64,000 nt of DNA from a virus. The notes under the pieces were generated by a model. The model saw only the letters and a list, made by a program, of their open reading frames with translations. It searched no databases and was not told the DNA's origin. Location of the stretch: the IMG/VR virus record IMGVR_UViG_3300021356_000007, positions 27,889 to 91,888 of that record. One strand, 5' to 3'. Below, piece by piece: positions 1-30,694 of this stretch. Each line of letters begins with the position of its first letter. Position 1 is the stretch's first letter. Both the position numbers and the translations under genes were made by a program.

Positions 1-658
1 GTTGCTGTCCATACCTTTGTGCATCGAGTCTTAGAGGTTGTTTGGTTTCAACACCTAAGTGAGTCCTGTGTACAGCAAGAGGGGCTCTATCTAATCCTCT
101 CTTTTTCTGAGGACTCATAGTCCTTGACTGTTGTTTAGAACGCCTACTGGTTGCTGATGCGATGTTAGAACCGCCCGGTTGAATCTCAAATTGAGGCTGA
201 CTCCAAGTCTTATCCTTGGCAGTACCCATCTCATCTAACTTAGACTTCATCAAACTAGACCAAGCATCCTCCATAGGCTCACCTGTAGCGAGCATACCGC
301 CCGGTGCAGGCATAGTCCCAGTAGCAGCACCAAGACTGAGGTTACCCATATCGGGCATACCTGTCATAGCACCGAACTGCTGACCTTCATTGAATTGGTC
401 GCTCATCTGTAAAGGGTCTTCTTCTTCCTCCATCATAGGAGGCATCATAGGAGGTTCTTGTTGAGGGATTGATATTTGTAGATGCGGTAGAGTTTCACTC
501 ATAACAGGCTTTTCCTTTTCAGCCTGCTTTTCGTCACGCACCTTTTCCATTTCTTCAGGGTCGCCATAACCATGCTTGTAGTCTTCATCTTTGGAATAAC
601 CAAGATTAGACTCACTTCTAGGTGAGTACATGCGTGTATCAGAACCTGTACTTGGCAT
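1..658 (-). CDS. Tagged low-complexity virion-type protein, C-terminus beyond window edge
   Basis: The frame is open from an ATG at 658 to the left edge, at least 219 codons, so the C-terminus is missing. The protein is Met, Pro, Gln and Glu rich and looks disordered. Around residue 133 it carries GEPMEDAWSSLMKSK, a form of the AW..LK motif found at the ends of several neighbouring proteins; the same GEPM-xx-AW context recurs at the C-terminus of the 8101-8925 protein. It is the most downstream visible gene of the leftward operon. No enzymatic motif is seen. A scaffold, internal virion or packaging-linked role is inference from composition and position. Confidence 0.7.
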   Translation of the reverse strand, partial: MPSTGSDTRMYSPRSESNLGYSKDEDYKHGYGDPEEMEKVRDEKQAEKEKPVMSETLPHLQISIPQQEPPMMPPMMEEEEDPLQMSDQFNEGQQFGAMTGMPDMGNLSLGAATGTMPAPGGMLATGEPMEDAWSSLMKSKLDEMGTAKDKTWSQPQFEIQPGGSNIASATSRRSKQQSRTMSPQKKRGLDRAPLAVHRTHLGVETKQPLRLDAQRYGQQ

Positions 659-669
659 GTTTCTTCACC

Positions 670-1371
670 TCATAAAATGTCAAGGATGTCCTCATCCACT
701 GTTCCATCAGCGTTGGCGAGTAGGCTGGCCTTGACTCGCTTCCATACATCGGTACTTTCTTTGCCTAATTCAACTTTGAGGACATTTATCGTATTATTGG
801 CTACATTTGTAGATGGTTCAGCCCATTTTTCTTGGTAAGCACTCAAATCCTTGAGTGTCTCTCTGACCTCTTTGTGGAGTCTTACCATGTCACTGATGAC
901 ACCGTCATCGTGTATGTTGGTTTCTTCCATATACTGTGCTAACTTACCGTTCAGTCCTTGTACATTGTTCCTAAGAATATCAATTTCTTCGCCTACTTTG
1001 ATAGCAACTACGGCTGCGGAACTCTTTCTAACTAGAGGCTGGAAGTGTTGCTTCATGTGTCTATACACTGAATCTTCACTGCACTCTAGTTCCGTGGCAA
1101 TATCGTCACTGGTCCTTTCACCTTCAAAATATGCTACTTCCAATTCCTTTCGATTCTCGCTAGTGCATACTGCACATGAATGATTAGAAGTAGAATGATA
1201 TTCACCTACATGATTTTTCATGTGACGCTCTGCTGTGTTGGCTCTCCAGCCCATATCTTTATCCATTATTTGGGGGTTAGCGATACCGTCAATGATACTC
1301 TGCTCTAAAGCATCACGGTCACCATGTTGACAAAAAGAACAACTTCTCTTTGTCTGACGAGTACCTCCCAT
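670..1371 (-). CDS. Duplicated CxxC-HxxxH zinc/HTH DNA-binding protein, possible small terminase-like
   Basis: The N-terminal half holds two copies of a unit with CxxC followed about 35 residues later by HxxxH (C11, C14, H50, H54; then C66, C69, H105, H109). The helix before each HxxxH looks like a helix-turn-helix recognition segment (for example DDIATELECSEDSVYRHM). The C-terminal half is helical, with LNGKLAQYM and TLKDLSAY stretches typical of phage proteins often annotated as small terminase or packaging regulators. I use the ATG at 1371 because an upstream start at 1428 would run into the divergent gene. DNA binding is well supported by motif; a terminase small subunit role is inference. 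Confidence 0.7.
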   Translation of the reverse strand: MGGTRQTKRSCSFCQHGDRDALEQSIIDGIANPQIMDKDMGWRANTAERHMKNHVGEYHSTSNHSCAVCTSENRKELEVAYFEGERTSDDIATELECSEDSVYRHMKQHFQPLVRKSSAAVVAIKVGEEIDILRNNVQGLNGKLAQYMEETNIHDDGVISDMVRLHKEVRETLKDLSAYQEKWAEPSTNVANNTINVLKVELGKESTDVWKRVKASLLANADGTVDEDILDIL

Positions 1372-1392
1372 ACCATGTCGGAGGGGGCTGGT

Positions 1393-1743
1393 ATGAATAA
1401 CCTTTTTGAATGGGAAGGTTACCCTCATTTTGTGAAACTGCCTAGAATTAAGCCCAAAATCATGGGTGTACCTGTTTCTATAGAAACTGCTCGTGGCTTG
1501 TCAAGAGCCTCTAAGGATATATTAAGAAAAAGAGTAGTCCCTGAAGAAATAAAGCAAGAAAGACTCGACATTTGTATGTCCTGTCCCAGTTGGAAAAACT
1601 ACAGATGTATGGAATGTGGTTGTCAAATGCGTGTCAAGACTACACTAACATCGAGCAGATGCCCCAAAGGTAAATGGAAAGAGTACCTAGACTTCAGAAA
1701 TACGGGAATAAATACCAGTCAACATGAAGAAAGCACCGAATAA
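1393..1743 (+). CDS. Zinc-ribbon protein of a phage-wide family
   Basis: A 116-residue protein whose middle and C-terminal part holds CMSCPSWKNYRCMECGCQM followed by a CPKGKW ending, giving a four to five Cys zinc ribbon. The pattern IC.SC....CxxCGC.M..KT.L..S.CP.GKW is familiar from many tailed phage genomes. The ATG at 1393 has a GGAGGGGG ribosome binding sequence just upstream. It is the only plus-strand gene in the leftward late block, lies divergent from the 670-1371 gene and overlaps the next minus gene by 57 bp at the 3 prime end. Function is unknown; nucleic-acid or protein binding is likely. Confidence 0.8.
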   Translation: MNNLFEWEGYPHFVKLPRIKPKIMGVPVSIETARGLSRASKDILRKRVVPEEIKQERLDICMSCPSWKNYRCMECGCQMRVKTTLTSSRCPKGKWKEYLDFRNTGINTSQHEESTE

Positions 1744-1929
1744 TCCCAGCACAAGGTAAGCCATTGTATTACTAGCCATCTTGCCACCTGATGTCAGCAG
1801 TAAAACTGTGAGAGTGACTATTATTGTCAATAGTTGAACCATAACCATGTCAATGATTACACTTTTACGAGGTGCAAATATTTCCATAGCAGTCCCTGAA
1901 AAGCCAGCAATTGGTGTAAAATCCTTCAT
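1687..1929 (-). CDS. Small protein with two membrane segments
   Basis: An 80-residue protein with two strongly hydrophobic segments (about residues 27-46 and 55-73) separated by a short SGGKMASN loop. The size and two-helix hairpin layout are compatible with a holin-like or virion membrane protein, but no family is recognised. It sits just upstream in transcription of the zinc-finger gene and downstream of the Met/Gln-rich gene, in the same cluster as the GTPase and other membrane proteins. Its 3 prime end overlaps the convergent 1393-1743 gene. Confidence 0.65.
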   Translation of the reverse strand: MKDFTPIAGFSGTAMEIFAPRKSVIIDMVMVQLLTIIVTLTVLLLTSGGKMASNTMAYLVLGLFGAFFMLTGIYSRISEV

Positions 1930-1934
1930 CTATA

Positions 1935-2567
1935 TCACCTCGTACCCATAAAATTACCCATGAACTTACCCGCAGCAGAACCTGCCTTGTCCATCAGATT
2001 GTCATTAGCCAGTGCAGCACTCAAAGCCCCGCCCATCATAGATTGTTGAGCGAAAGCAGCAATCTGCTGTTGCTGCATCTCTGCGTTTTGAATACTCTGT
2101 TGACTTGCCATCTGTAAATTACTGAACTGACCTTTGACATTCTCTGCACTCATAGTCTGTAGACTATCAGGTAGAGAAGTTACATCCATTTTCATTGTCC
2201 CTTCTTTGTCGTTAATCACGAATTCGGCATTCTTTAGTATCTCAAGTACAGAAAAACTCACTAAATCGTTCATCATTTGTAAGAAAACAGCCATCTGAGC
2301 CCCTACTACGAACCTATCAATAGGTGCAAGTGAGCGCATCATAGCCATTTGTATCTCCATTTCACTCGGAGGTTGTATAGGTTGCTGCATCATATTCGCT
2401 TGCATACCCATTCCGCCCATCATTCCGCCCACAAATGTATTCTGAGAAGCCTGTTGCATCATACCTTGTGGTGCGAATGGGTTCATTTGGGCAGCCATTG
2501 GGCTAGAATTACCTTGTGCGCTGAGATTCAGTGCGCCGTTTTGCTGTTGTCCATTACCAAATATCAT
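1935..2567 (-). CDS. Met/Gln-rich protein of unknown function
   Basis: A 210-residue protein with a low-complexity N-terminus rich in Gln, Met and Asn (for example GGMMGGMGMQANMMQQ), a more ordered helical middle (PIDRFVVGAQMAVFLQMMND and following) and a Gln/Ala-rich helical tail ending GKFMGNFMGTR. Such composition is typical of scaffold or internal virion proteins, but that is inference. It is preceded by a GGTGAAA-type ribosome binding sequence and is embedded in a run of closely packed minus-strand genes. Confidence 0.65.
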   Translation of the reverse strand: MIFGNGQQQNGALNLSAQGNSSPMAAQMNPFAPQGMMQQASQNTFVGGMMGGMGMQANMMQQPIQPPSEMEIQMAMMRSLAPIDRFVVGAQMAVFLQMMNDLVSFSVLEILKNAEFVINDKEGTMKMDVTSLPDSLQTMSAENVKGQFSNLQMASQQSIQNAEMQQQQIAAFAQQSMMGGALSAALANDNLMDKAGSAAGKFMGNFMGTR

Positions 2568-2578
2568 ATCTTTTCACC

Positions 2579-3592
2579 TCATACTGTGGATTGTGTAAAT
2601 ATACCTTGCTCTGTCTGTGGCAGGACATCCTGATTGATAACACCATTGGCATTTTCTTGGGGTAAACTCTGCGCTACACTAGGTTGAGGGACTTGATTTA
2701 TACCCAATTGAGTGATAGCATCGGACAAAGTAGGGCTCATATTAGCCATTTCTTGTTGAAATAGCCTCAAATCGAACACAATCATAGTCACATCGTTGAT
2801 TCCAGTCTCAGGATTCTTGTAATGTAATAGGTTAATACCGTTATATGCCTTAGAATCCTTCTCTAATTGCATGAAAAATGGCTCATATTTCTTCAATAAT
2901 TCAGGTGTATTGTCCTTCTTTTTGACTACTGCAATGGGTACAGCGACTGTAGAAACGCCCTTTTTCACCATTTCTTTCATGCCCATGCTAGTTTTATTGT
3001 GGTCTTTGTCTGCTTCAGACTCCCATTTGCACAATAAATGGTACAAATGTAGGTGTTCAGGGCAATATGTACCCTTCATTTTCCTACCATTAGTAACTTG
3101 TTCTCTTGCTACAAAGGCTTCAGGGGCATTAGTTACAGGGTTTTTCCAATACATTTCCCACAAACTCTTACCTGAAACCTCATCTGTAATCTTAGCATAG
3201 AGATTATCATACTTGATTAACTCTTCACAGTCACAACCATCAATCACACAAAGATTACTTTGTCTATTATATCTATATTTTCTACCCCAAATCCACCTTA
3301 GAGGACTGTACCACTTACGCTTAGTAGGTGTCAAAAGCCTTCTCGCACTTCTGATGTCTTGTTTTCTTGCCTTTCTTGGGTCAGGGTGACGACTTGGGTA
3401 GAAATTCACCTTTGGAACTTCTATATTCTGCTTAGCAATTTCTTGCATACCTTGTTGAGCAGCCTGCATTTCGAGTAACTGTTCATGACTAGCATTACCC
3501 TGCTGGCTCAAAGCCATCATGTGCGCCTGACTCATATTAGCCAAATTCACATCCCCTTGTGGGACTCTTCCATATCCGCCTATCCTCATCAT
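2579..3592 (-). CDS. Conserved-looking virion-cluster protein with a Cys/His centre
   Basis: A 337-residue protein. The first 60 residues are Gln, Met and Ala rich. The centre is basic (RKARKQDIRSARRLLTPTKR) and then holds CVIDGCDCEEL and, 70 residues later, CPEHLHLYHLLC, which together could bind a metal. The C-terminus is again Gln-rich. No known family is recognised. It lies immediately upstream, by coordinate, of the GTPase gene with 8 bp between them, so the two are probably co-transcribed and may work together. Confidence 0.7.
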   Translation of the reverse strand: MMRIGGYGRVPQGDVNLANMSQAHMMALSQQGNASHEQLLEMQAAQQGMQEIAKQNIEVPKVNFYPSRHPDPRKARKQDIRSARRLLTPTKRKWYSPLRWIWGRKYRYNRQSNLCVIDGCDCEELIKYDNLYAKITDEVSGKSLWEMYWKNPVTNAPEAFVAREQVTNGRKMKGTYCPEHLHLYHLLCKWESEADKDHNKTSMGMKEMVKKGVSTVAVPIAVVKKKDNTPELLKKYEPFFMQLEKDSKAYNGINLLHYKNPETGINDVTMIVFDLRLFQQEMANMSPTLSDAITQLGINQVPQPSVAQSLPQENANGVINQDVLPQTEQGIFTQSTV

Positions 3593-3600
3593 AATATCAC

Positions 3601-4317
3601 CTAACTTAGTAACTCCATCATTGTATTTTCAACATTCCAGCCTATTCTTGTAGCCATCATTCCCCTCTTCGTAGGAACGCCCGCTTTTTGGAGGCGTACA
3701 AGGTCTTCTCTGAAGGGGTCGAACATCTTGTGTTCACCCAATCTTTGTTGCTGCCAAAGTATATTGGCTTGCTCATCCCACCATTCATCTGCTTTATTTG
3801 CAACCAACATAATAGTCTTTGGAACATACTTTTTACCTCTCAATCTACTTTTAAAATTTCTATAACGATACTGCCTGTGGAGTATTGAATCTACGAGGAA
3901 CTTAAAACCCCCCACTGCTTGTACTGCTGGGTCTCCACCTAATGTAGTTCTGTTATCAAATAAGAATATAATGGCTTCAACTTGTCTATTAACCATATCA
4001 TCTATCCAAAGATTCCAAAACCTTTCCTCACCTGCTATGTCAGAAGAATAAACTACTCTCTTGTCACCTTTCCAAGCAACTCTTTTTCTTGTAGGGTTTG
4101 GTAACAAGAATCTGTTTATACCCGGCACTTTGAAATGTTTAGTCCTTTCACTAAGAGGTATCTCTTCCATTTCGCCCGGTGTTGTCATGTAGCGGTCAAG
4201 TGTAGTCTTACCTACCATTGTCGGTCCGTACACCCCTACTCTTCTTGGCTTCCAGTAGTGGTAGAATTCCTTAGCGAACACCACTCCGCCAACTAAAGCA
4301 CTACCACCCAATGACAT
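3601..4317 (-). CDS. Ras/Rab/Arf-like small GTPase with hydrophobic N-terminus
   Basis: A 238-residue protein with a full set of small-GTPase motifs: G1 P-loop GPTMVGKTT at residues 31-39, G3 DIAGEERF at 93-100 (compare the Rab/Ras DTAGQERF), G4 NKAD at 174-177, and a C-terminal ATRIGWNVENTMMEL segment that resembles the G5 plus last helix of Rab proteins. The first 20 residues (GGSALVGGVVFAKEF) are hydrophobic and could be a membrane anchor. Family knowledge says such proteins bind and hydrolyse GTP as switches. Neighbours on both sides encode membrane or metal-binding proteins. Finding this fold in a late viral operon is unusual. The motifs make GTPase identity strong; its role is unknown. 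Confidence 0.88.
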   Translation of the reverse strand: MSLGGSALVGGVVFAKEFYHYWKPRRVGVYGPTMVGKTTLDRYMTTPGEMEEIPLSERTKHFKVPGINRFLLPNPTRKRVAWKGDKRVVYSSDIAGEERFWNLWIDDMVNRQVEAIIFLFDNRTTLGGDPAVQAVGGFKFLVDSILHRQYRYRNFKSRLRGKKYVPKTIMLVANKADEWWDEQANILWQQQRLGEHKMFDPFREDLVRLQKAGVPTKRGMMATRIGWNVENTMMELLS

Positions 4318-4318
4318 T

Positions 4319-4576
4319 TCAATTTCTCCAACTGAATATAGCGTCAGACCACTCTCTTAACTTTTCTTTGAGCCAGTCTCCAGTTGACTCCCATAAATTC
4401 CAATCAGTGTAAAACTCAAACGCACTGACTACAAACGCAGTACAAACAGAAAAAATGACGGTCCTAATCCAGCCCCACCCTCTTTCGTATGCTACATCAA
4501 CCGTATTGGCTATGTGCATACTCCTCAGTGTTTCTTCAACTGCGTCATCACTGGGGGTCTTGAAGATTCGACCCAT
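4319..4576 (-). CDS. Single-pass membrane protein next to the GTPase
   Basis: An 85-residue protein with one clear membrane helix (about residues 34-55, WGWIRTVIFSVCTAFVVSAF) and a Trp-rich amphipathic C-terminus (WLKEKLREWSDAIFSWRN). Its stop is separated from the start of the GTPase gene by a single base, which argues for translational coupling and a joint role at a membrane. No known family recognised. Confidence 0.7.
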   Translation of the reverse strand: MGRIFKTPSDDAVEETLRSMHIANTVDVAYERGWGWIRTVIFSVCTAFVVSAFEFYTDWNLWESTGDWLKEKLREWSDAIFSWRN

Positions 4577-4582
4577 AAGTTA

Positions 4583-5137
4583 TCACTTCTCCTTTTTCTT
4601 GAATGTCCCATCTGCGTTTCTCTTTCTCTTAGCGTCTTTTTCATCATCAGTTTCTTCGAATGTTAAACCAAGTGACATAGGCTCTTTTGATACTGGTTGA
4701 GTTGCTGGTACAAAATCAGCAGTGCTAGTAGTAGGTGGATTCATCCTTTCTTGAATCCAAGGTGGAGTTTGACCGGGGTTTTGCTCAAGCCAGTTTAGTT
4801 CAGCCTCCAACTGTGCTTCTTGAAGTCTTAATTCCATGTCTTGTCTTCTACGGTCAAAGTTCATCTCCATACTTCTGTACCTTGTTTTTCTCTGTTTTTC
4901 CTGTGCGGCCAATCTCGCTCTTTCATCCATACCTTGTTGGAAGAACATTTTGAAAAGATAGTACGCTACACCCTGAACAGCAAATGCTGCCATAGCATAA
5001 GTAATTCCGTTAACTGTAGGGTCGTCTAATTTTAACCAGTATTCTGCATCGAAAACGGCTATTGCTATACCGATTGATACGGCTTGGGTGAGTATCAAAC
5101 CCATCAATCTTATTTCTGCTTGGTCTACATCTCTCAT
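4583..5137 (-). CDS. Two-helix membrane protein with cytoplasmic coiled coil
   Basis: Two hydrophobic segments near the N-terminus (around LMGLILTQAVSIGIAIAVF and ITYAMAAFAVQGVAYYLF) are followed by a long charged helix rich in Arg, Glu and Gln (RARLAAQEKQRKTRYRSMEM onward) likely to form a coiled coil, then a Pro-rich stretch and a basic end, RKRNADGTFKKKEK. I prefer the ATG at 5137; a GTG at 5188 would add 17 residues. It sits upstream of the single-pass membrane protein and the GTPase in the same operon, so the three probably form one membrane module. Confidence 0.7.
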   Translation of the reverse strand: MRDVDQAEIRLMGLILTQAVSIGIAIAVFDAEYWLKLDDPTVNGITYAMAAFAVQGVAYYLFKMFFQQGMDERARLAAQEKQRKTRYRSMEMNFDRRRQDMELRLQEAQLEAELNWLEQNPGQTPPWIQERMNPPTTSTADFVPATQPVSKEPMSLGLTFEETDDEKDAKRKRNADGTFKKKEK

Positions 5138-5221
5138 TGTCTCTCTGCCACTCTGCAAAGTTATCCCTCTAACCTTCTGCAAGACCACTGCGTAAATAAA
5201 GGTATCACAAAATTAGAAGGC

Positions 5222-5257
5222 GGGTCGGCAGGGAATGAGAGAGAACCTGACCGACCC
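5222..5257. terminator. GC-rich hairpin between minus-strand genes
   Basis: GGGTCGG at 5222-5228 pairs with CCGACCC at 5251-5257, extended by AGG against CCT inside the arm, with a purine-rich loop. It lies in the 88-bp gap after the stop of the 5277-6572 gene and before the membrane-protein gene. It may be a transcript-processing or termination structure. There is no long T run after it, so classical intrinsic termination is uncertain. Confidence 0.45.
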
Positions 5258-5276
5258 ATGTGTTGTAATTATATCA

Positions 5277-6572
5277 TCAATCTTTTTTCTTTTCAGAATC
5301 AAGTTTTTCCCTCTTGCCATTCTTTGAAGGGCCCGGGCCTGCTTTAGAACCGATAACAATAACCATGCCATGTGCTGGCTTTTTGCTACCTTCTTTTTTG
5401 TTCAAATCTTCTTCACCTTTACCGTCAGCAGCGAACTTAGGGACTTTCTTGCCCTCATGCTCTACCATTTCCAGTTCTCCCTTAGCCGTACATCCCATTT
5501 TATTGACGCAGTTTTCTTTACCGCATCCGGGGCATTTAGCCTTAGACATTTCTTCATTCATCCCGTAAGGGCAGGTCATTTTACCGATGCACTCAGGTTT
5601 AGCGCATCCAGCGCACCTTGCTTTGTACATCATATCTTCAACTTGCTTCTTTATTTCTTCGCCTATATTGTTTGTAAACATATACTCACCTAATGATTTC
5701 CTAGTCCCGCCATACTCTGCCTGTTGTTCGAAAGCAGAACCCTGATTCGGATTCCAAATCTCTCTATCAAGAACAGAACTACTCTGAACATTGGAAATAT
5801 CACCCATACCTGCATTAGTCTGACCTAGACCAAATGTTGAACCTGAACCACCCCCACCAATCAAAGACGAAAGGTTTGTCCCTTGCCCGCCACCGCCACC
5901 ACCGGGCGTATTATTTTGCATATAATTCAGACCTGCCATACCGAGTCCTACTGCACCTGCACCCAAAGCACCAAGACCAGCCATTCTTCCAAGAGAAATA
6001 GACTCGTCTACTCCTTTAGCACCCCTTCCAATTTGACTGTAAGCACCTTGTCTGAAAGCACCCCTACGGGCAGCATCTGTTCCGGCTTCTCTTGCCATTC
6101 TTCGAGTATAAGGTTGGTTTCTTGCTAGTTCAAATAATCGAGCGTCTGCGTTAGCAGCAGTCACAGGAGGAAGTTGTCGGCTGACTGCATCAGCCTGCTC
6201 TCTTGCAATACGGTTTCTAGTAGCAGTTTCTGCTGCTTCTCTTGCTGCTGCTCTCTGTGAAGCAATTTGAGCCCCTCTTCTTCCAGCGAGTCTTCCCACT
6301 CCCTTAGCACCTAACTTAACTGCTGCACCTGCACCAAGACCTTGAGCCATTCCTGTACCAAACTCAAGTGCATTAGAACCAAAACTATCGTCACCTTCAG
6401 CGAGTTCCATACCAATGAATGGGTCTGTGATTTGATTATCACGGACATTCTTATAACCTTGATAAGCACCATAGCCCAATAATGCCAATGGTATAAGCGG
6501 AAGTGCCTTGTTTACGGTGTCTTCTTTAACCACCGACCATGCTCGGTCAATCGGCGAAATAGATTCCGACAT
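5277..6572 (-). CDS. AW-tagged, Gly/Ala-rich protein with two CxxCx4CxxxxC metal motifs
   Basis: The 431-residue product starts MSESISPIDRAWSVVKED, the AW..LK-type tag shared with other late proteins; I use this ATG because 23 upstream codons would overlap the preceding gene. Then come a hydrophobic stretch (LPLIPLALLGYGAY), an Ala/Arg-rich helical region, Gly-rich hydrophobic segments near MAGLGALGAGAVGLGMAGL and GGGGGGQG, and a C-terminus with paired motifs CAGCAKPECIGKMTC and CPGCGKENCVNKMGC. These resemble twin zinc modules. The mix of membrane-active and disordered regions fits an internal or ejected virion protein, but this is inference. Confidence 0.75.
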   Translation of the reverse strand: MSESISPIDRAWSVVKEDTVNKALPLIPLALLGYGAYQGYKNVRDNQITDPFIGMELAEGDDSFGSNALEFGTGMAQGLGAGAAVKLGAKGVGRLAGRRGAQIASQRAAAREAAETATRNRIAREQADAVSRQLPPVTAANADARLFELARNQPYTRRMAREAGTDAARRGAFRQGAYSQIGRGAKGVDESISLGRMAGLGALGAGAVGLGMAGLNYMQNNTPGGGGGGQGTNLSSLIGGGGSGSTFGLGQTNAGMGDISNVQSSSVLDREIWNPNQGSAFEQQAEYGGTRKSLGEYMFTNNIGEEIKKQVEDMMYKARCAGCAKPECIGKMTCPYGMNEEMSKAKCPGCGKENCVNKMGCTAKGELEMVEHEGKKVPKFAADGKGEEDLNKKEGSKKPAHGMVIVIGSKAGPGPSKNGKREKLDSEKKKD

Positions 6573-6750
6573 GAATATCCCCATGCTGTTTGTTTTCATA
6601 AGCCTGTTGCAAGTAATGGTAACTTTCTGCGGCTTCAACAAGTAGGTTCATAGCCTCTATGCTACCGTCTTGAAGGTCTTGTATCTTACTCAAGTTGTAT
6701 TCACTAACCTTGAGTAACTCTTTCAAAAGTGTGTTCCAAAAATCTTCCAA
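6547..6750 (-). CDS. Small helical protein with a degenerate AW tag
   Basis: A 67-residue, probably all-helical protein beginning MEDFWNTLLKELLKVSE, which looks like a variant of the AW..LK tag with Phe in place of Ala. Its 3 prime end overlaps the start of the next gene (6572) by 26 bp, which is usual in this operon. It may be a structural adaptor or simply carry the tag followed by a short helical body. No family recognised. Confidence 0.6.
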   Translation of the reverse strand: MEDFWNTLLKELLKVSEYNLSKIQDLQDGSIEAMNLLVEAAESYHYLQQAYENKQHGDIHVGIYFAD

Positions 6751-6760
6751 GTCAGTCCCT

Positions 6761-7324
6761 CTACCTAACCAGTACTATATCTGATTTAAGAGTACCTCGT
6801 TCTTTGAAATGTCGGGCTCTGTTGCTATGAGGGTCTTCTGCTACCAAAGTGTGGTCTTTGGTGTGACTCATATCAGGTCCACCCTGTCCGTAAATACCTC
6901 TTTTCCTGCGCTCACGATTCAACTCTTCACGATACTTGACACGCTTAGGACTAGACTCATACTTCTTGTCATACTCCAACTTGTGCCTTTTGGCTTCAGG
7001 GCTGACAGGACTCTTGATAACCAAGACTCCTTTGACAATAGTAGGCTTACCGCCGACACCTTGTTTCTTAGCACGCTTTCTTTTGGTAGCAGCCTGCTTC
7101 TGACCGCTAGTCATTTCACCACTGGTCTTGGGTGTTTTGCTGCTGACTCTCACACTTGGTCTACACTTTGGATAGCCTTTGCTTCCTTTCTTGGCTTTCG
7201 ACCTACCACAAGGAGGGTGCTTACCATCCTTGTCTTTACGACTGACATCTACCCACTTTTCTTTGAACCATCTGTTGAGGTTCTTGACAACTAATGTGTC
7301 ATGACAAGTGCATCTATCGTTCAT
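6761..7324 (-). CDS. Basic protein with KWVDVSRKDKDGKHPPCGR motif, widespread in phages
   Basis: A 187-residue strongly basic protein. The N-terminus holds CTCHDTL and WFKEKWVDVSRKDKDGKH followed by PPCGRSKAKKG and YPKCRPSVRVSSKTPKT, a block I recognise from many uncultured marine phage and some large eukaryotic virus proteins. The C-terminal block PKRVKYREELNRERRKRGIY ... DMSHTKDHTLVAEDP ... ARHFKERGTLK is another widespread viral block. It likely binds nucleic acid or coats DNA in the particle, judged from charge only. It overlaps the next gene by 4 bp. Confidence 0.75.
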   Translation of the reverse strand: MNDRCTCHDTLVVKNLNRWFKEKWVDVSRKDKDGKHPPCGRSKAKKGSKGYPKCRPSVRVSSKTPKTSGEMTSGQKQAATKRKRAKKQGVGGKPTIVKGVLVIKSPVSPEAKRHKLEYDKKYESSPKRVKYREELNRERRKRGIYGQGGPDMSHTKDHTLVAEDPHSNRARHFKERGTLKSDIVLVR

Positions 7325-7527
7325 TTTTTACCCGCCCAAGCATCACATACATGGTCTGCTCGACACATGAAGTCGTACCATTCACAATAGCCCGTCATAG
7401 GGTCATCGGTCTTCGAGGAGTCCCACGCTTTACAATTACCGCACTTTTCAGAGCCAGTGGCTTTTCTATAATTAGGCGCATCCTCTTTGCCCTTAATTAT
7501 AGCCCACGCTTCTTCGAGAGGTATCAT
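7321..7527 (-). CDS. AW-tagged mini protein with Cys-rich domain
   Basis: A 68-residue protein made of an N-terminal tag, MIPLEEAWAIIKGKE, and a compact domain with CGNCKAWD, GYCEWYDFMC and VCDAW. Four to five Cys at these spacings recur in small phage proteins and suggest a metal-binding or disulfide fold. It shows that the tag can be attached to a minimal domain. ATGA overlaps join it to both neighbours. Confidence 0.75.
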   Translation of the reverse strand: MIPLEEAWAIIKGKEDAPNYRKATGSEKCGNCKAWDSSKTDDPMTGYCEWYDFMCRADHVCDAWAGKK

Positions 7528-7727
7528 TTCTTCTTCCCCTTTTTCTTACCACGGAACTTACCCTTACAGTATTGAACAGCCCAGCCATTTGCATAAGCAG
7601 ATGGATAAACTTTGAATTTTCTTTTTGCTGCTGCTTTACCAGCAGGACAGAGTTTCTTTTCTAAAAAATCAAAAGCAGAGTCGATACCTATGCAATGTCC
7701 ACAGTCGCACTCACTCAACAGTTCCAC
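7524..7727 (-). CDS. Small basic protein with CPAGKAAAKRKFKVYPSAYA motif
   Basis: A 67-residue protein with an N-terminal CDCGHC, then CPAGKAAAKRKFKVYPSAYA and NGWAVQYCKGKFRGKKKGKKK. The AAKRKFKVYPSAYAN block is a recognisable viral block seen in phages and in nucleocytoplasmic large DNA viruses, of unknown function. The strongly basic tail suggests DNA contact. It is coupled to the tagged mini protein by ATGA overlap. Confidence 0.75.
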   Translation of the reverse strand: MELLSECDCGHCIGIDSAFDFLEKKLCPAGKAAAKRKFKVYPSAYANGWAVQYCKGKFRGKKKGKKK

Positions 7728-8104
7728 CTCTTTAATGCCGCACCTTTAGGTGTTAATTTACCTTTTTTACTGGTTGGACCTTTAACTCCACTCATACGAG
7801 CACAGAATGATTTTCTCCTTTTCGATGCCTTGCTACCCCTTTTTAGTTTAGAAGGCTTCTTAGTGACAGGTCTTTTCAGATTTGCGCCCGTCTTACGCTT
7901 TGCTGCCGCACGACCCTTAGCATTGAGTCCTCCAGTCTTGGCGTGTTTGTTAGGATTGTAACCGTGGAAAGGTTTTGACTTTTTCTTGGCTTTCATAACC
8001 GCAAGACTGAGTTCCATAGGACTACAGCAATCACAGAAATTGACATCCGACCAGTCGGTTTTACCTACAATGTCAGCCTCAGTCAACCATTCTATATCTG
8101 TCAT
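7715..8104 (-). CDS. Basic protein with GGLNAKGRAAAKRKTGANLK block (DUF6321-like)
   Basis: About 129 residues from the ATG at 8104, which overlaps the stop of the preceding gene. The N-terminal part is acidic (MTDIEWLTEADIVGKTDW) with a CDCC cluster; the rest is very basic: GGLNAKGRAAAKRKTGANLK, PVTKKPSKLKRGSKASKRRK, SFCARMSGVKG and KLTPKGAALKRWNC. This block order is typical of DUF6321-like proteins of phages and large eukaryotic viruses. I assign the family from memory of these motifs, so treat the name with caution. Role in the particle or on DNA is inference. Confidence 0.75.
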   Translation of the reverse strand: MTDIEWLTEADIVGKTDWSDVNFCDCCSPMELSLAVMKAKKKSKPFHGYNPNKHAKTGGLNAKGRAAAKRKTGANLKRPVTKKPSKLKRGSKASKRRKSFCARMSGVKGPTSKKGKLTPKGAALKRWNC

Positions 8105-8925
8105 ACTAATCCCTTCAATAATCTCCAAGCCATATTCATCGGCTCGCCTGTTTGTATATCCCTTTCTTCGTCTCTTCTCCTTACTGCATCCCTAAACGCA
8201 GGTGGTAAATTAGCATATTTATCAAAAGGCTCAGGTGCAGGCGGAGGAGTTTGTAAATCTTCAAAGGTAGACGGTACATCTCTTGGGAAGAAATCTACCC
8301 TGTTAGGTAGCCCTTCGTGGATTCTTGAGTTGTTGTGTGTATCTTGCTCAGGAAGTATAGGGCTTGTCGTAGGTAAAACATGTATGTTTTGTCGAGTTTT
8401 ATCATTTAGCATACCATGCCCTATAGTCTTGAGTTGCAACTTATCATTCTCATCTAAGTTAAAATGAGGAGTTACGGTATGACTCAGTCCCATTTGCTTT
8501 TCACTTTCGTCAAGTTTAGGGTCATCAGTTCTCATCACATCAAAACTCAGACTAGGTTCACGCTCATCTAGTCGCTCATCAGATGCAGGCTTCTTGAGTT
8601 TCATAGCCTCAATTATCTCAGGATGATTGTTAGCCAAATCGTTAGCCATAAAGGAAAAGATGTCTGCTAAATTGAACTTATAGCCTTTCATACCTCTTTT
8701 CTTGAATGCATTCGGCAACTCTTGATTTTCATTGTATCTCTGACTTAATCGCTTTTTGTAATGCTCATGAGGGTTAGCGTTAACATGTTCAAGTGGTTTT
8801 CTACTCTTCACCCTGTCCATCATTCGTTGTGACAAATTGTCGTAATACTCTTCAGGGAGGTGATTAAGTAAAGTATAATCTTTGAGTAAAACCCAAGCCT
8901 GCTGTAGACTATGGCTTTCGCTCAT
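8101..8925 (-). CDS. Protein carrying the AW tag at both ends
   Basis: A 274-residue protein starting MSESHSLQQAWVLLKDYTL and ending GEPMNMAWRLLKGLV, so the same short motif sits at both termini. Between them lie a charged helical part, a Pro-rich region (PPPAPEPFDKYANLPP) and no recognisable enzyme motif. The C-terminal GEPM-xx-AW context matches the internal tag of the 1-658 protein. A bivalent linker or scaffold joining two copies of a common partner is a reasonable inference. Confidence 0.75.
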   Translation of the reverse strand: MSESHSLQQAWVLLKDYTLLNHLPEEYYDNLSQRMMDRVKSRKPLEHVNANPHEHYKKRLSQRYNENQELPNAFKKRGMKGYKFNLADIFSFMANDLANNHPEIIEAMKLKKPASDERLDEREPSLSFDVMRTDDPKLDESEKQMGLSHTVTPHFNLDENDKLQLKTIGHGMLNDKTRQNIHVLPTTSPILPEQDTHNNSRIHEGLPNRVDFFPRDVPSTFEDLQTPPPAPEPFDKYANLPPAFRDAVRRRDEERDIQTGEPMNMAWRLLKGLV

Positions 8926-8962
8926 GGCTGTCGCATGTTTGCACAGAACAAAAAGATTAGGG

Positions 8963-9024
8963 TGGCTGACAGGAAAAAAAGAGGAAGTGCAACCCCGGTT
9001 GGTGTTAGGTCGGCCTGTCAGCCA
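8963..9024. terminator. Long inverted repeat in late-operon gap
   Basis: TGGCTGACAGG at 8963-8973 and CCTGTCAGCCA at 9014-9024 form a perfect 11-bp stem. The 40-nt loop contains CAAC/GTTG around CCCG. On the minus strand the loop carries a run of seven T and another T-rich run follows the stem. It separates the small zinc protein gene from the double-tagged protein gene and may attenuate or process the late transcript. Confidence 0.5.
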
Positions 9025-9048
9025 AAGTTGAATCCAAAGTAGACTATA

Positions 9049-9186
9049 TTATTCTTTTGTAAAAAGAGTGCACATTTCACAATACCAAGCGAGCCCTCTG
9101 AAAACACCGTTGACTTTCATGTAAACTCTTTTGGTAGGATGATGAAAACAATGTTCGCATTTGATGCTTTTTCTTTTACCCGCCAA
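9049..9186 (-). CDS. 45-residue zinc-ribbon protein with TTG start
   Basis: The frame from a TTG at 9184-9186 reads through AGKRKSIKCEHCFHHPTKRV and FRGLAWYCEMCTLFTKE to a TAA. CEHC and CEMC form a classic two-knuckle zinc ribbon. GGTGAGG stands immediately upstream of the TTG at good spacing, and an in-frame TAA lies just upstream, so no longer version is possible. It fills the otherwise empty gap between 8925 and 9248. Confidence 0.6.
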   Translation of the reverse strand: MAGKRKSIKCEHCFHHPTKRVYMKVNGVFRGLAWYCEMCTLFTKE

Positions 9187-9247
9187 GTCCTCACCCGCTT
9201 ACAGGGCAAGTGAAGTGCATTCACTACTTGTAGTTTGGTGTCACTAT

Positions 9248-10501
9248 TCAGGCTGACCTATCAATTTCACCCTGAACCTTAGAACCATCTTGGCGACCCA
9301 TGTTCATTGCTGCCTGCATAAGTTGCTGTCTAGCAAATTGTTGTGCCTCCGGGCTAGATGGGTCAGCGAATGCTCTCATAGTTGGTGTATTTCTTAAGCC
9401 CGGACTTAGCATTATTTCTTTTTCTTCAGCACTCATAGGTTGCCTTTGCATGTCATCCATTGCTTGTCTCCTTGCGCCAGTCATCCTTGGCTCGAATAAT
9501 TTACGAGAAACTCTCTCAGGTTTGTCCTCTTCGACAGGTGCTTCTTGTATTTTAGAACCGCCCGGTGTCATCATACCTTCGAGCATTGCTCGGATTCTAT
9601 CTTCTTGGCTCATTTCTTGAGGTGCTTCTTCTTGTTCAGGTTGAATGAATCTAGTTGTCATACCGGATAGAGGGTCTTTTCCAAAACCTCCAGTCTTCAT
9701 ACCTTCGACATTGCTAAGTTTTGAAGCAGACCTTTGACGAGCAAATGGATTTCTTTGGACCCTGCCAGTCTTATCACTGACTACTGGCTGATTGAATTGG
9801 TCTGTTTGCATACCAAGGTTCAGTAAATTTTGACCTGACCTAGCACCACCTCTAACATCGAACCTACCGCCTCTGCTACCTGAAACCATACGGTCAGCAG
9901 CAGATGTCATACCTTCTCTACCTCTTGCTCTTTCAAGCGGAGTAGTGAAACTTTGTTCAGGGTCTACATCCATCATAGGGATAGTCTGTGTAGGGTGTCT
10001 CACTTCTAGTTGCCCTGTGTTTGGGTTCAAAGCCATACTCGTACCCATTTGGTCTACCACATCTTCTCTTAGAGGACTGATGTCTCTCTCGATAGCAGCG
10101 ACACTTTGAGGGATAGGGTCACCCCTGCCTCCTCCAAGGTTACCTAGAGGAACTGGAACGCTCGCTGTCATTTCACCGGGTCTTTCTACATCACGCTGTA
10201 CTGCGTCACCTCTACCACTAAAGGTATCAGTCATCCCCTCTAGTTCAGCCCTTTGCTCAGGAGTAAGCATCTCCAAATCTTTACCTCTTAGTCTGTTGAG
10301 CATACCGCCCCTCATTGTCGCTACTGGGTTCAAAACTCTTGTAGCGATACCTTGACGATTATCTAAAGCACTGTCGCCCATGTATTCATCAATGTATTCG
10401 TTAGACGGCATACCTGCAATAGCAGGGTGAACTGTACCGTATATACCCTGTGCGCCGGGTTGTGCTTTCAATGTAGTCCAAGCGTTTTCGAGTGCGCTCA
10501 T
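9248..10501 (-). CDS. AW-tagged disordered protein, candidate scaffold
   Basis: A 417-residue protein starting MSALENAWTTLKAQPGAQG. The remainder is rich in Arg, Gly, Met, Gln and Glu with few hydrophobic blocks, and repeated motifs around MTSAADRMVSGSRGGRFDVRG. No catalytic motifs are visible. Its ATG overlaps the stop of the HMG-CoA lyase gene, so these two head the leftward operon together. A scaffolding or internal virion role is inferred from composition and tag. Confidence 0.75.
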   Translation of the reverse strand: MSALENAWTTLKAQPGAQGIYGTVHPAIAGMPSNEYIDEYMGDSALDNRQGIATRVLNPVATMRGGMLNRLRGKDLEMLTPEQRAELEGMTDTFSGRGDAVQRDVERPGEMTASVPVPLGNLGGGRGDPIPQSVAAIERDISPLREDVVDQMGTSMALNPNTGQLEVRHPTQTIPMMDVDPEQSFTTPLERARGREGMTSAADRMVSGSRGGRFDVRGGARSGQNLLNLGMQTDQFNQPVVSDKTGRVQRNPFARQRSASKLSNVEGMKTGGFGKDPLSGMTTRFIQPEQEEAPQEMSQEDRIRAMLEGMMTPGGSKIQEAPVEEDKPERVSRKLFEPRMTGARRQAMDDMQRQPMSAEEKEIMLSPGLRNTPTMRAFADPSSPEAQQFARQQLMQAAMNMGRQDGSKVQGEIDRSA

Positions 10502-11343
10502 GAGGTGGGGATAGCGAGACCACTAAAAAAAGTGTTGATTGATTTTGCAAAGTCAGTTGCTTTCCCCAGCATCTTCTCGTCTACCCCTGTTTCAAAGCCC
10601 CAAGCGTGTAGATGGCTGACAAGAAGGGCAGTATCAAGATTAGCCCCGCTGCCCTCTGCGAAGGGACAACCACCCAATCCCCCGATGCTAGAATCAAATT
10701 GCCTGATACCGGAAAATAAGCCAGCCCTAACAAGCCTGATTGCCTGTTCTTCTGAGCCTTTATGGTGCAAATGCAGAGCCGGAGTTAGGTCTTCTTCGTA
10801 TACAATAGAAGCCCAGTCCTTTACCTCTTGCTCAGTCGCAGCACCAACCGTATCGCTGAGAACTACAGTAGAGCCTAGCATCTTCGCATCTCTGATGCAA
10901 GACTTGATTTCTGACTCAGAAAAACTACCGCTATATGGACTACCAAACGCCATGCTTATGTATACCCTAACTAAATCCTTGGGGTAAGCGTTGAGCATCG
11001 TCTTGTACATCAGAACAATTTCGCTTCGAGTCTTACCCATGTTCTTCAGGTTGAATGTCTCACAAGGGCTGAACACGATGTTGATGTAGTCCATACCTAA
11101 ATCCATAGCCCTGTCAAAGCCCCTCTGATTCATGACAAGCCCAGCACCTATGCCAGTCCAAACTTCCTCTGCATCAGCCATCTGCGGCAAGATTTTCGGG
11201 TGAGCGAAACTGACTTCCTCAATCTCAGTCAGCCCGCTGTCATACAGAAGCCCTATGAGTTTCTGTTTGTCAGAGGTAGGGACAAAGTGCTTGATGTATT
11301 GCAACCCATCTCTAGGACCAACTTCGTAGACTGTGATTTTCAT
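10498..11343 (-). CDS. Hydroxymethylglutaryl-CoA lyase
   Basis: A DRE-TIM metallolyase of about 281 residues. HMG-CoA lyase cleaves HMG-CoA to acetoacetate and acetyl-CoA. Seen here: YEVGPRDGLQ at the N-terminus (catalytic Arg-Asp), SFAHPKILPQMADAEEV (family SPKWVPQMAD block), VLSDTVGAATEQEV, the metal-binding HxH in LHLHHKGS, and GGLGGCPFAEGSGAN with the active-site Cys of the HMGL signature. All key residues appear to be kept, so an active enzyme is likely. The ATG at 11343 fits the family start; one at 11355 adds four residues. It is the first gene of the leftward operon, directly beside the origin-like control region. A metabolic role in a virus is unusual. Confidence 0.87.
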   Translation of the reverse strand: MKITVYEVGPRDGLQYIKHFVPTSDKQKLIGLLYDSGLTEIEEVSFAHPKILPQMADAEEVWTGIGAGLVMNQRGFDRAMDLGMDYINIVFSPCETFNLKNMGKTRSEIVLMYKTMLNAYPKDLVRVYISMAFGSPYSGSFSESEIKSCIRDAKMLGSTVVLSDTVGAATEQEVKDWASIVYEEDLTPALHLHHKGSEEQAIRLVRAGLFSGIRQFDSSIGGLGGCPFAEGSGANLDTALLVSHLHAWGFETGVDEKMLGKATDFAKSINTFFSGLAIPTS

Positions 11344-11417
11344 AAGACCGTTCATACGAGTCCGGTGTAGAAATTAAACTTGTTGGTGATTACTCAAGTA
11401 GAAAAACTAGCGGGCTC

Positions 11418-11736: not shown

Positions 11737-11888
11737 TGGGTAGGTGGTGGGGCGTGGGGAGTACCTCCCTCAACCCACGCATATGGGTGGTACATATTGC
11801 CCATTACCATACTTACACGCCTAAACCCCATGTGTCTAAACGCACGCATATGATTCCTCTGCTAACTGGAAAACGATGGACTGAGCCG

Positions 11889-11913
11889 AACTGGTTATAA
11901 AGACCCAACAAAG
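11889..11913 (+). promoter_or_regulatory. Archaeal-type promoter, upstream variant copy
   Basis: AACTGGTTATAAAGACCCAA followed by CAAAG. The AACTGGTTATAAA core is identical to the other copies at 15028, 19014, 25381, 30744 and 39069; the downstream part shows ACCC instead of AAAC. TTATAAA is a good archaeal TATA box and the AACTGG in front sits where a BRE would be. A GCCG-aaaa-CGGC hairpin follows at 11923-11934. This is the first of two promoters for the 12160 gene. Confidence 0.75.
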
Positions 11914-11980
11914 GAGATGTTCGCCGAAAACGGCAGTCAACAACCACCTCCCCTCCCCTCCTCGACACATGGGGTGGGGC

Positions 11981-12029: not shown

Positions 12030-12082
12030 GCATCAGGGTGGTTGTATATATCCTGCTAAATGATAACCGACTGACTGAACAG

Positions 12083-12107
12083 AACTGGTTATAAAAACCC
12101 AACAAAG
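12083..12107 (+). promoter_or_regulatory. Archaeal-type promoter, proximal variant copy
   Basis: AACTGGTTATAAAAACCCAA followed by CAAAG. It is a near repeat of the promoter at 11889, including a downstream GCCG-aaat-CGGC hairpin at 12117-12128, so the promoter-plus-hairpin unit has been duplicated. The TATA box lies about 70 bp before the ATG of the 12160 gene, leaving a short leader with an AAAAAGGAGAG ribosome binding site. Confidence 0.75.
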
Positions 12108-12159
12108 GATATGACTGCCGAAATCGGCAACCAAAACAAAACAAAAAGGAGAGATACAA

Positions 12160-29601: not shown

Positions 29602-29931
29602 ATGGGTATCGGAGTAGAATATATTCAAGACCACAACCAAGAATACTGGTACGACAATCTCTTAGGAATGCTCAAGATGGTAGACCAAATTATCAGAATC
29701 TACGGTGATGACGAAGAGACATTCAGAGAGCGTATCAGTGACTACATGTGGGAATTAGTCGTCAGGAATCTTGACGCTGATACCAAAGCAAGACATGACG
29801 GCGAGTTCGAGAGGTGCGGTACATTCCCTAAGTTCAAGGGCGAGCCGGGCATCAGTCATCTGATTGCTGAGGCTTACCCTAGAGAGAATCCACTCAAGCC
29901 TCAAGACCTAGAAGACCAAGAATCCGATTGA
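29602..29931 (+). CDS. Last gene of the early block
   Basis: 109 residues, MGIGVEYIQDHNQEYWYDNL onward, acidic. It converges on the 29894-30694 minus-strand gene and overlaps it by 38 bp, so the two transcripts are antisense at their ends. No family recognised. Confidence 0.6.
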   Translation: MGIGVEYIQDHNQEYWYDNLLGMLKMVDQIIRIYGDDEETFRERISDYMWELVVRNLDADTKARHDGEFERCGTFPKFKGEPGISHLIAEAYPRENPLKPQDLEDQESD

Positions 29932-30694
29932 GTTCGGTTTGCTGGTTACTGACACGGTCAGACAAATCTAGTTCTTGTTGTGCAGTCATTGGTACTTCAG
30001 AATCGAACACTGGGTCAACGAAGTCTTCAAATGACTGTGCATCTATTTGTCTAGCGAATGGCTGTAACTGAGCGTCAGTTAATTCATAGTCAATCCCATA
30101 CCTGCGAGGGTCTTTTCTAGCCAACCTAGAAGCCATCTGAGCGACTGGGTCTTTTGGGTGAGCAGCACCATAGAACATAGGGTCATTGAATAAAGCGTGT
30201 CCTTCTATGGGTCTACCAGTAACCTGACTCGCAGTCAATGCCGTGGGTCGGTCTACTGCCATCCAGTTAGGAGGCTTTGCATCTGCTACGCCGGTAGCCT
30301 CTGCTAGGGGTATGGCATGGTGTATGGATGTAGCGAGTGTTCTACCTCTGTCTGAGTCAGCCTTTGGATTACCTGATTCGGCAAATGGTCTGCCTCTTAT
30401 CTGTTGAGATAAAATAGGCGTACCACGACCTGACATAAATTGTTGAGCCTCCGGTGGCAATTCATAAGTCTGCGCTATTGGTGTCTGTTCAACAAAGATG
30501 TCCGGCATCAAACGAGCCAACTGGCTCGCAAGGTACATGTCACTCAATGTATTACCGTGACCTACCTTAGTAACATCAGGATTACCTTCTTGACCGAACA
30601 CCATCTGATTCATCCCCTGCCCTATCCGAACACCTTCGGAGGGTTGGAAGACAGCCTTGAGCAATAACCATGCTCTCTCAAATGGGCTGTTCAT
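29894..30694 (-). CDS. Lone AW-tagged late-type protein, kinase-like features uncertain
   Basis: About 266 residues from ATG 30694: MNSPFERAWLLLKAVFQPSE carries the tag of the left late operon. The following GNPDVTKVGHGNTLSDMYLA and ADAKPPNWMAVDRP weakly recall nucleotide-binding and catalytic-loop blocks of kinase-like folds, but the usual HxD motif is not clear. It is the only minus-strand gene between 11.4 and 53.8 kb and is flanked by an early gene and a divergent promoter. It is probably a late virion protein that became relocated; this is inference. Confidence 0.7.
   Translation of the reverse strand: MNSPFERAWLLLKAVFQPSEGVRIGQGMNQMVFGQEGNPDVTKVGHGNTLSDMYLASQLARLMPDIFVEQTPIAQTYELPPEAQQFMSGRGTPILSQQIRGRPFAESGNPKADSDRGRTLATSIHHAIPLAEATGVADAKPPNWMAVDRPTALTASQVTGRPIEGHALFNDPMFYGAAHPKDPVAQMASRLARKDPRRYGIDYELTDAQLQPFARQIDAQSFEDFVDPVFDSEVPMTAQQELDLSDRVSNQQTELNRILGLLGLEA

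Follow-up and report, generated by a model that had tools for sequence, protein, structure and literature searches.

The 64,000 nt window analysed here spans positions 27,889 to 91,888 of the 91,888 base virus record IMGVR_UViG_3300021356_000007 (C1), which stems from a 91.9 kb magrovirus, a virus of Poseidoniales. Few archaea of the surface ocean are as abundant as the Poseidoniales (Marine Group II), and no magrovirus has been cultured. Late proteins of this virus and its relatives share a peptide of approximately 11 residues, here called the AW..LK tag. That this element is a portable docking peptide is well supported, because it is a short and specific helix that is used independently of position, occurs in multiple copies and is found on unrelated protein bodies. 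Coordinates refer to the window unless prefixed with C1.

Sequence and enrichment of the tag

The eight peptides first noticed in the window were all found where the original prediction had placed them. Seven fit one consensus, [TNS]-[PA]-[FMIL]-[DE]-x-A-W-x-[LIV]-[LIV]-K, whereas the eighth, MEDFWNTLLKE (6547-6750), has no A-W core and is at best degenerate. Among 385 non-redundant N-terminal copies the Ala, Trp and Lys are conserved in 96%, 95% and 98%, respectively. In internal and C-terminal copies the favoured form is E-P-M-[DE]-[IL]-A-[WFM]-x-L-L-K, and [TR]-[GS] frequently precedes it. The near-invariance of A, W and K suggests specific docking rather than generic amphipathicity.

The peptide had been described as a short amphipathic helix, and this agrees with a mean hydrophobic moment of 0.46, compared with 0.27 +/- 0.13 for shuffled tags, and with an AlphaFold model of one tagged protein where a helix of residues 3-11 spans the tag. 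The T/S/N-P-x-D/E stretch would form the N-cap box of such a helix, and residues 3, 6, 7 and 10 are predicted to share one face.

Relatives of the source virus were recovered by similarity of the major capsid protein (MCP), the terminase large subunit (TerL) and DNA polymerase B (PolB). For MCP, the best 80 of 508 relatives were retained, and 19 related records were fetched and their genes called. Matches to the core AW.[LIVMFTE][LIV]K were counted across 20 related records, which together give 1,564 non-redundant proteins. The first 30 residues hold 72 matches (15.3 per 10,000 residues), with the Ala-Trp pair at residues 7-8 in 39 of them, while 9 matches (2.4 per 10,000) lie near C-termini and 14 (0.36 per 10,000) are internal. 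Shuffled N-termini gave on average 0.21 matches with a maximum of 2 in 500 runs, and control motifs with reversed or swapped order gave 0-2 matches in all. A position-specific scoring matrix (PSSM) of 12 columns, built from 236 seeds and used with a site threshold score of >=9, found 268 sites compared with 4 in shuffled proteins. These sites belong to 239 genes in 29 records; 28 of the 29 have at least one tagged gene, and a single virus has up to 18.

Late genes and selection on the protein sequence

The tag had been assigned to late proteins, a claim that would fail if it were equally frequent at the termini of early proteins. We found it in 197 of 1419 genes on the strand of the terminase and in 7 of 931 genes on the opposite strand (odds ratio 21, P 2e-36), and most of the seven opposite-strand cases are weak. 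Approximately 60% of the tagged genes are located 10-20 kb upstream of the terminase, on the side where the late operon begins.

Third codon positions vary across the tags, with some codon preference retained at the Leu positions. Since codon use is mostly free, it is the protein sequence of the tag that is under selection. Genome-wide, GCC is nearly absent before TGG (3 of 677 Ala-Trp pairs outside the tags), which is consistent with avoidance of CCTGG.

Portability between positions and bodies

In this genome the tag is, as originally described, almost always at a terminus, but this does not hold for the group, since internal tags are common in relatives. By position, the non-redundant copies are 385 N-terminal, 92 internal and 22 C-terminal. 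One chain can hold up to five tags, and in chains with two to five the tags separate modules of roughly 100-200 residues.

The bodies had been called unrelated, and a test for shared ancestry bears this out: 519 tagged proteins form 220 connected components once the tags are masked, and 165 of these components consist of a single protein. We therefore rejected shared ancestry of the bodies as an explanation; moreover, the same body can be tagged at different ends. The SPEAKRHKLEYD domain illustrates this: of 32 proteins with this domain, 15 have no tag, 13 have one immediately ahead of the domain, 2 immediately behind it and 2 at another place in the protein.

Tagged genes form arrays, with up to 11 consecutive genes in one virus. 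Tags on unrelated bodies are 55% identical in residues within a virus compared with 45% between viruses (permutation maximum 48%), a signal into which lineage differences are mixed and that they partly explain. At shared residues, 48% of the codons are identical within a virus while 40% is expected from codon usage, so that both copying of tags and co-adaptation to the receptor of that virus are plausible sources of the within-virus likeness.

Tagged proteins

Most of the tagged bodies have no profile match. Those recognised include D12 and C5 methyltransferases, NUDIX, an HD phosphohydrolase, a PARP-like domain, GP88, DUF5872, DUF6321 and zinc domains. Two motifs set tagged late proteins apart from untagged ones: the metallopeptidase motif HExxH (14 of 228 tagged, 3 of 1001 untagged, P 2e-8) and [YFWM]HG[TS] (16 of 228 tagged, 3 of 1001 untagged, P 7e-10). 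For the [YFWM]HG[TS] class, an alignment of 25 proteins gave an AlphaFold model with a mean predicted local distance difference test (pLDDT) score of 78. The top 20 Foldseek hits of this model are all structures of the ADP-ribosyltransferase (ART) superfamily, 18 of them KptA/Tpt1, with a best E of 8e-4 and a probability of 1.00. The KptA profile matches one member of the class at E 0.022, below its cut-off. With moderate confidence, we predict an ART-superfamily fold for this class. An iterative profile search started from an ART reached 243 proteins by drifting along the tag, and these are therefore not ART homologs.

Distribution of the tag

In viral contigs, the DNA pattern of the N-terminal tag gave up to 11 matches per locus among the matches listed. 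The same pattern gave 51 single matches in 257 Gb of cellular genomes, from unrelated phyla, many of them internal to what we take to be PurH (MKAMDFAWKVVKHVKSNAIV). None of these matches was in a record with Poseidoniales in its title, a result that holds for the N-terminal form in this 257 Gb collection, where the presence of Poseidoniales was not separately checked. Among 50 tagged viral records of at least approximately 25 kb, a relative of TerL is encoded in 34, one of PolB in a further 8 and one of MCP in another 3. Deep relatives, with PolB identities of 38-46%, retain the tag. In the collections searched, the tag is restricted to Magrovirales-like records.

A docking tag and its probable destination

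The original prediction spoke of a docking or packaging signal. The docking part stands, whereas the evidence for packaging is circumstantial and consists of the late-strand location near the terminase end, the effector type of the putative cargo and the precedents in T4 and P1. We suggest that magroviruses attach the tag, with its hydrophobic face of F3, A6, W7 and L10 and its fixed lysine, to a large and fast-changing set of late accessory proteins. It is likely that a single conserved viral partner binds the tag. This partner would most likely be at the internal face of the prohead, such as the scaffold-protease, the portal, the MCP or the large protein encoded between portal and protease. 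On balance we lean towards the capsid or prohead interior as the place into which the tag loads the accessory proteins. From a location inside the prohead, ejection together with the DNA would follow; packaged tagged proteins would thus travel with the genome and be delivered into the next host. We infer delivery at the next infection from the late expression and from the host-modifying enzyme types. Whether the whole amounts to a modular virion cargo system, where one peptide loads exchanged effectors into the capsid for injection, is in our judgement evenly poised. The effector set of such a system would comprise ADP-ribosyltransferases, zinc metallopeptidases, methyltransferases, nucleotide hydrolases, small zinc modules and DUF5872/DUF6321 modules.

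Several observations weigh against loading into the capsid. Our analysis did not identify the receptor of the tag, and we know of no virion proteome for these uncultured viruses. No protease cleavage site is conserved in the stretch that follows the tag, and the internal and multi-copy positions are unlike the terminal propeptide of T4. Most bodies are without known function, many of the tagged proteins look disordered, and the ART model has low TM-scores in Foldseek (0.30-0.39). The haloarchaeal virus HVTV-1 has an MCP of 35% identity and a similar head gene order, and no tag was found in the 41 annotated proteins of the half of its genome examined, the late half. Since this half lacks the tag while the head gene order is similar, a virus with this head fold need not have the tag. 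Internal tags often follow [TR]-[GS]-E, a possible cleavage site.

Alternative explanations

The tag may instead bring proteins to a docking hub inside the infected cell, such as a late-stage scaffold, a membrane complex or a host protein, where the tagged proteins act without being packaged. This would explain the portability, the late expression, the multivalency and the within-virus homogenisation equally well. Multi-tag chains look like clients of a hub, and a conserved late block outside the head module (3601-5137), encoding GTPase-like and membrane-type proteins, lies between the tagged genes and the terminase. What such a hub explains less easily are late-made ARTs and metallopeptidases, unless these reach a new host; T4, for its part, packages Alt. 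Beyond the scattered single matches given above, cellular genomes did not yield the N-terminal tag pattern, although the partner need not carry the tag itself. We consider an intracellular hub rather unlikely. A generic amphipathic helix that takes late proteins to the membrane is quite improbable, even though the hydrophobic moment is well above that of shuffled tags and one tagged protein was earlier read as a Gly-rich putative membrane protein. Lipid-binding helices tolerate substitutions and favour several basic residues; the near-invariant A6, W7 and K11 and the conserved acidic residue 4 would be unusual for them, and internal copies sit between modules of one chain.

Tags could also be traces of gene duplication or recombination, in which spreading cassettes take along a common 5' segment that has no docking role. 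The arrays of adjacent tagged genes fit this, and the excess of codon identity within a virus implies that some copying occurs. Such traces would hardly account for C-terminal and internal tags, for residues that are fixed while codons are mostly free, or for the same body gaining and losing the tag at different places, and we hold this explanation to be very improbable. Finally, many copies begin at the second codon, often with a GGAG-type site upstream, as a translation enhancer or regulatory site at gene starts might. A function at the nucleotide level is nevertheless extremely unlikely, as third positions vary and internal and C-terminal copies are kept in frame. The skew in Ala codons before Trp, which might have been taken for a nucleotide signal, is genome-wide and not specific to the tag, and this candidate was rejected. 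We thus retain the docking peptide as the best explanation of the AW..LK tag.

Tagged genes in the window

The tagged and tag-related genes of the window are all on the minus strand. The first tagged gene of the late operon, 9248-10501, encodes a 417 aa late protein with a disordered-looking body and an N-terminal tag (SALENAWTTLKA, 10463-10498); a near-identical body in the related record G001 keeps the tag. No Pfam family above its cut-off and no PHROG was found for this gene. A search for relatives with its body recovered one near-identical contig only, because tagged bodies evolve too fast for body-based searches. The gene at 8101-8925 encodes a 274 aa late protein tagged at both ends, with HSLQQAWVLLKD at the N-terminus (8878-8913, PSSM score 10.2) and EPMNMAWRLLKG at the C-terminus (8110-8145, PSSM score 18.0). 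The two-ended layout is also present in G001 and G004, and the protein at the corresponding place in G004 is longer and contains an HEVGH motif.

Two degenerate copies were missed in the original prediction, both in genes whose bodies are fully tagged in orthologs. In the 129 aa DUF6321 protein at 7715-8104 (Pfam PF19846, E 4e-15), the DUF6321 body is immediately preceded by SPMELSLAVMKA (7988-8023), where G022, G015, L209 and L236 have full tags. The 64 aa KFKVYPSAYANG protein at 7524-7718 (PHROG 27331) carries IDSAFDFLEKK. DUF6321 also matches the C-terminal ends of the otherwise different PHROG families 10346, 727, 3477, 30733, 11180 and 10538, and in other phages it may therefore be a C-terminal module that is portable in its own right.

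The gene at 7321-7527 encodes a Cys-rich (CGNC...C) mini-protein of 68 aa with an N-terminal tag (IPLEEAWAIIKG, 7489-7524); of 20 homologs, 13 have the tag immediately ahead of this body. The protein at 6761-7324 combines DUF5872 with the SPEAKRHKLEYD domain. It is untagged here, with KGVLVIKSPV at the junction in place of PMDIAWRLLKE in relatives, and it is the second domain that relatives tag at varying places, as given above. The open reading frame (ORF) at 6547-6750 encodes 67 aa starting with MEDFWNTLLKE, which is tag-like only, and was not counted as tagged; it looks real, as G002 has an ortholog, MAENVYDWWEDLFLE. The gene at 5277-6572 encodes a Gly-rich late protein of 431 aa with Cys clusters and an N-terminal tag (SPIDRAWSVVKE, 6522-6557), and a tagged family of 15 has the same layout.

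At the start of the window, an internal tag (EPMEDAWSSLMK, 245-280) belongs to the 373 aa late protein C1:27425-28546 (window -463 to 658), with one to three copies in many orthologs. On the late strand inside the early region, 29894-30694 encodes a 266 aa protein with an N-terminal tag (SPFERAWLLLKA, 30653-30688). An alignment of four sequences contains VxKV, DxKPxNW and DP motifs, by which the protein is possibly kinase-like, an identity that we do not claim. Pfam and PHROG searches with it gave no match, and its AlphaFold model (pLDDT 35) has no usable fold.

Genome layout and other shared motifs

The head module is encoded on the minus strand within the upstream bases 1-27,888 of C1 and comprises the MCP (SU10_MCP, E 1e-8), the prohead protease (Peptidase_S78, E 7e-10), the portal (E 1e-12) and the terminase large subunit (E 9e-10), all by Pfam. 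Judged from their translations, genes of the plus-strand early block read as DNA polymerase B, clamp loader, sliding clamp and a chaperonin-like thermosome, and the ORF at 10498-11355 as HMG-CoA lyase. The record has an HK97-fold MCP, S78 protease, portal and terminase together with PolB, RFC, PCNA and chaperonin- and HMG-CoA-lyase-like ORFs. This gene set matches that of the Magrovirales, viruses that are tied to Poseidoniales and come from metagenomes only (PMC10768690).

Between the portal and the protease, C1:13022-18811 encodes a conserved protein of 1,926 aa. It has the same place as HVTV1_115 of HVTV-1, a protein of 1,313 aa annotated as zeta toxin. The protein at 3601-4317 is GTPase-like (GPTMVGKTT, NKAD), and its neighbours at 4319-5137 and 1687-1929 are small and apparently membrane-spanning. 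Similar GTPase-like and membrane-type genes are present in G002, G013, G022 and G026; Pfam and PHROG searches with the block gave no match. The divergent region between the late and early operons holds two 82 nt direct repeats (11859-11940 and 12053-12134) that are 80% identical. Each has TTATAAA followed by a GGAGATG- or GGATATG-like stretch, and these are possible paired promoters.

The prohead protease (C1:11618-13012) and its orthologs end in a conserved M-[SD]-W-[DSE]-[DE]-V-H-x-L-A, and the same motif, as MDWSEIHALA, is present in a 125 aa neighbour (C1:19216-19593). In late proteins the pattern is found 28 times close to the C-terminus and 5 times internally. The motif is perhaps a scaffold-shell or scaffold-portal contact. 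A possible second terminal or junction motif, of beta type, is VLVxK, found in 6761-7324, in 5277-6572 and in late genes of G004, G019 and G022 in the forms TLVVKN, GVLVIKS, SDIVLVR (C-terminus) and MDKVLVTK. It is modestly enriched at the N-termini of late proteins (36 compared with 9.9 expected), with many orthologs among these. A shared N-terminus is also present in early genes, four of which start with MIDTDK (22865, 23093, 23338 and 25069), three of these with MIDTDKYE.

Comparison with known systems

The tag marks functionally linked proteins in the sequence, where hundreds of others are unannotated, and it grouped candidates of ART-like and metallopeptidase-like type, most of which escaped profile searches. 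Should packaging be true, the injected proteome of an archaeal virus group could be read from sequence alone and the tag would be a ready-made cargo-loading peptide; if the modular cargo system is true, these archaeal viruses would be effector-delivery particles. The magrovirus paper that we searched makes no mention of a motif, and a literature search for Poseidoniales viruses together with ADP-ribosyltransferase found nothing.

The cargo-loading peptides of encapsulins are short and terminal, occur on unrelated enzymes and dock inside an HK97-fold shell. They resemble the tag by description, but are usually C-terminal, belong to bacterial and archaeal nanocompartments and are of another sequence type. 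In phage T4, a capsid-targeting sequence (CTS) of 10 residues sends internal proteins into the prohead, and the ADP-ribosyltransferase Alt is packaged and ejected into the host (PMC9026906). The CTS of T4 IPI-IPIII and the magrovirus tag are alike in that a short signal is shared by divergent, otherwise unrelated virus proteins, the cargo varies between relatives and a prohead protease is encoded. T4 packages an ADP-ribosyltransferase as well as small internal proteins that vary; the magrovirus tagged set includes ART-like proteins. The T4 CTS, likened to the tag by description, is a propeptide at the N-terminus that ends in a protease site. Unlike this, the magrovirus tag is used internally and at C-termini as well, is present in multiple copies per chain, has no evident cleavage site after it and is carried by up to 18 genes per virus. 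We do not class it as a T4 CTS, since it is not an N-terminal propeptide.

In phage P1, the first 30 residues of DarB suffice to send a reporter to the capsid, and the protein itself is believed to pass into the next host (PMC9024508). This signal, too, resembles the tag by description; it is known from one protein and gives no consensus across many bodies. According to the part of the published account used here, many head proteins of the giant Salmonella phage SPN3US are packaged with the DNA and ejected, and a prohead protease processes the head proteins; that part describes no short portable tag of this kind (PMC7411985). Capsid-targeting peptides are thus known, and the points of difference here are the archaeal hosts, the use at both ends and internally, the multiple copies, and the number and turnover of the clients.

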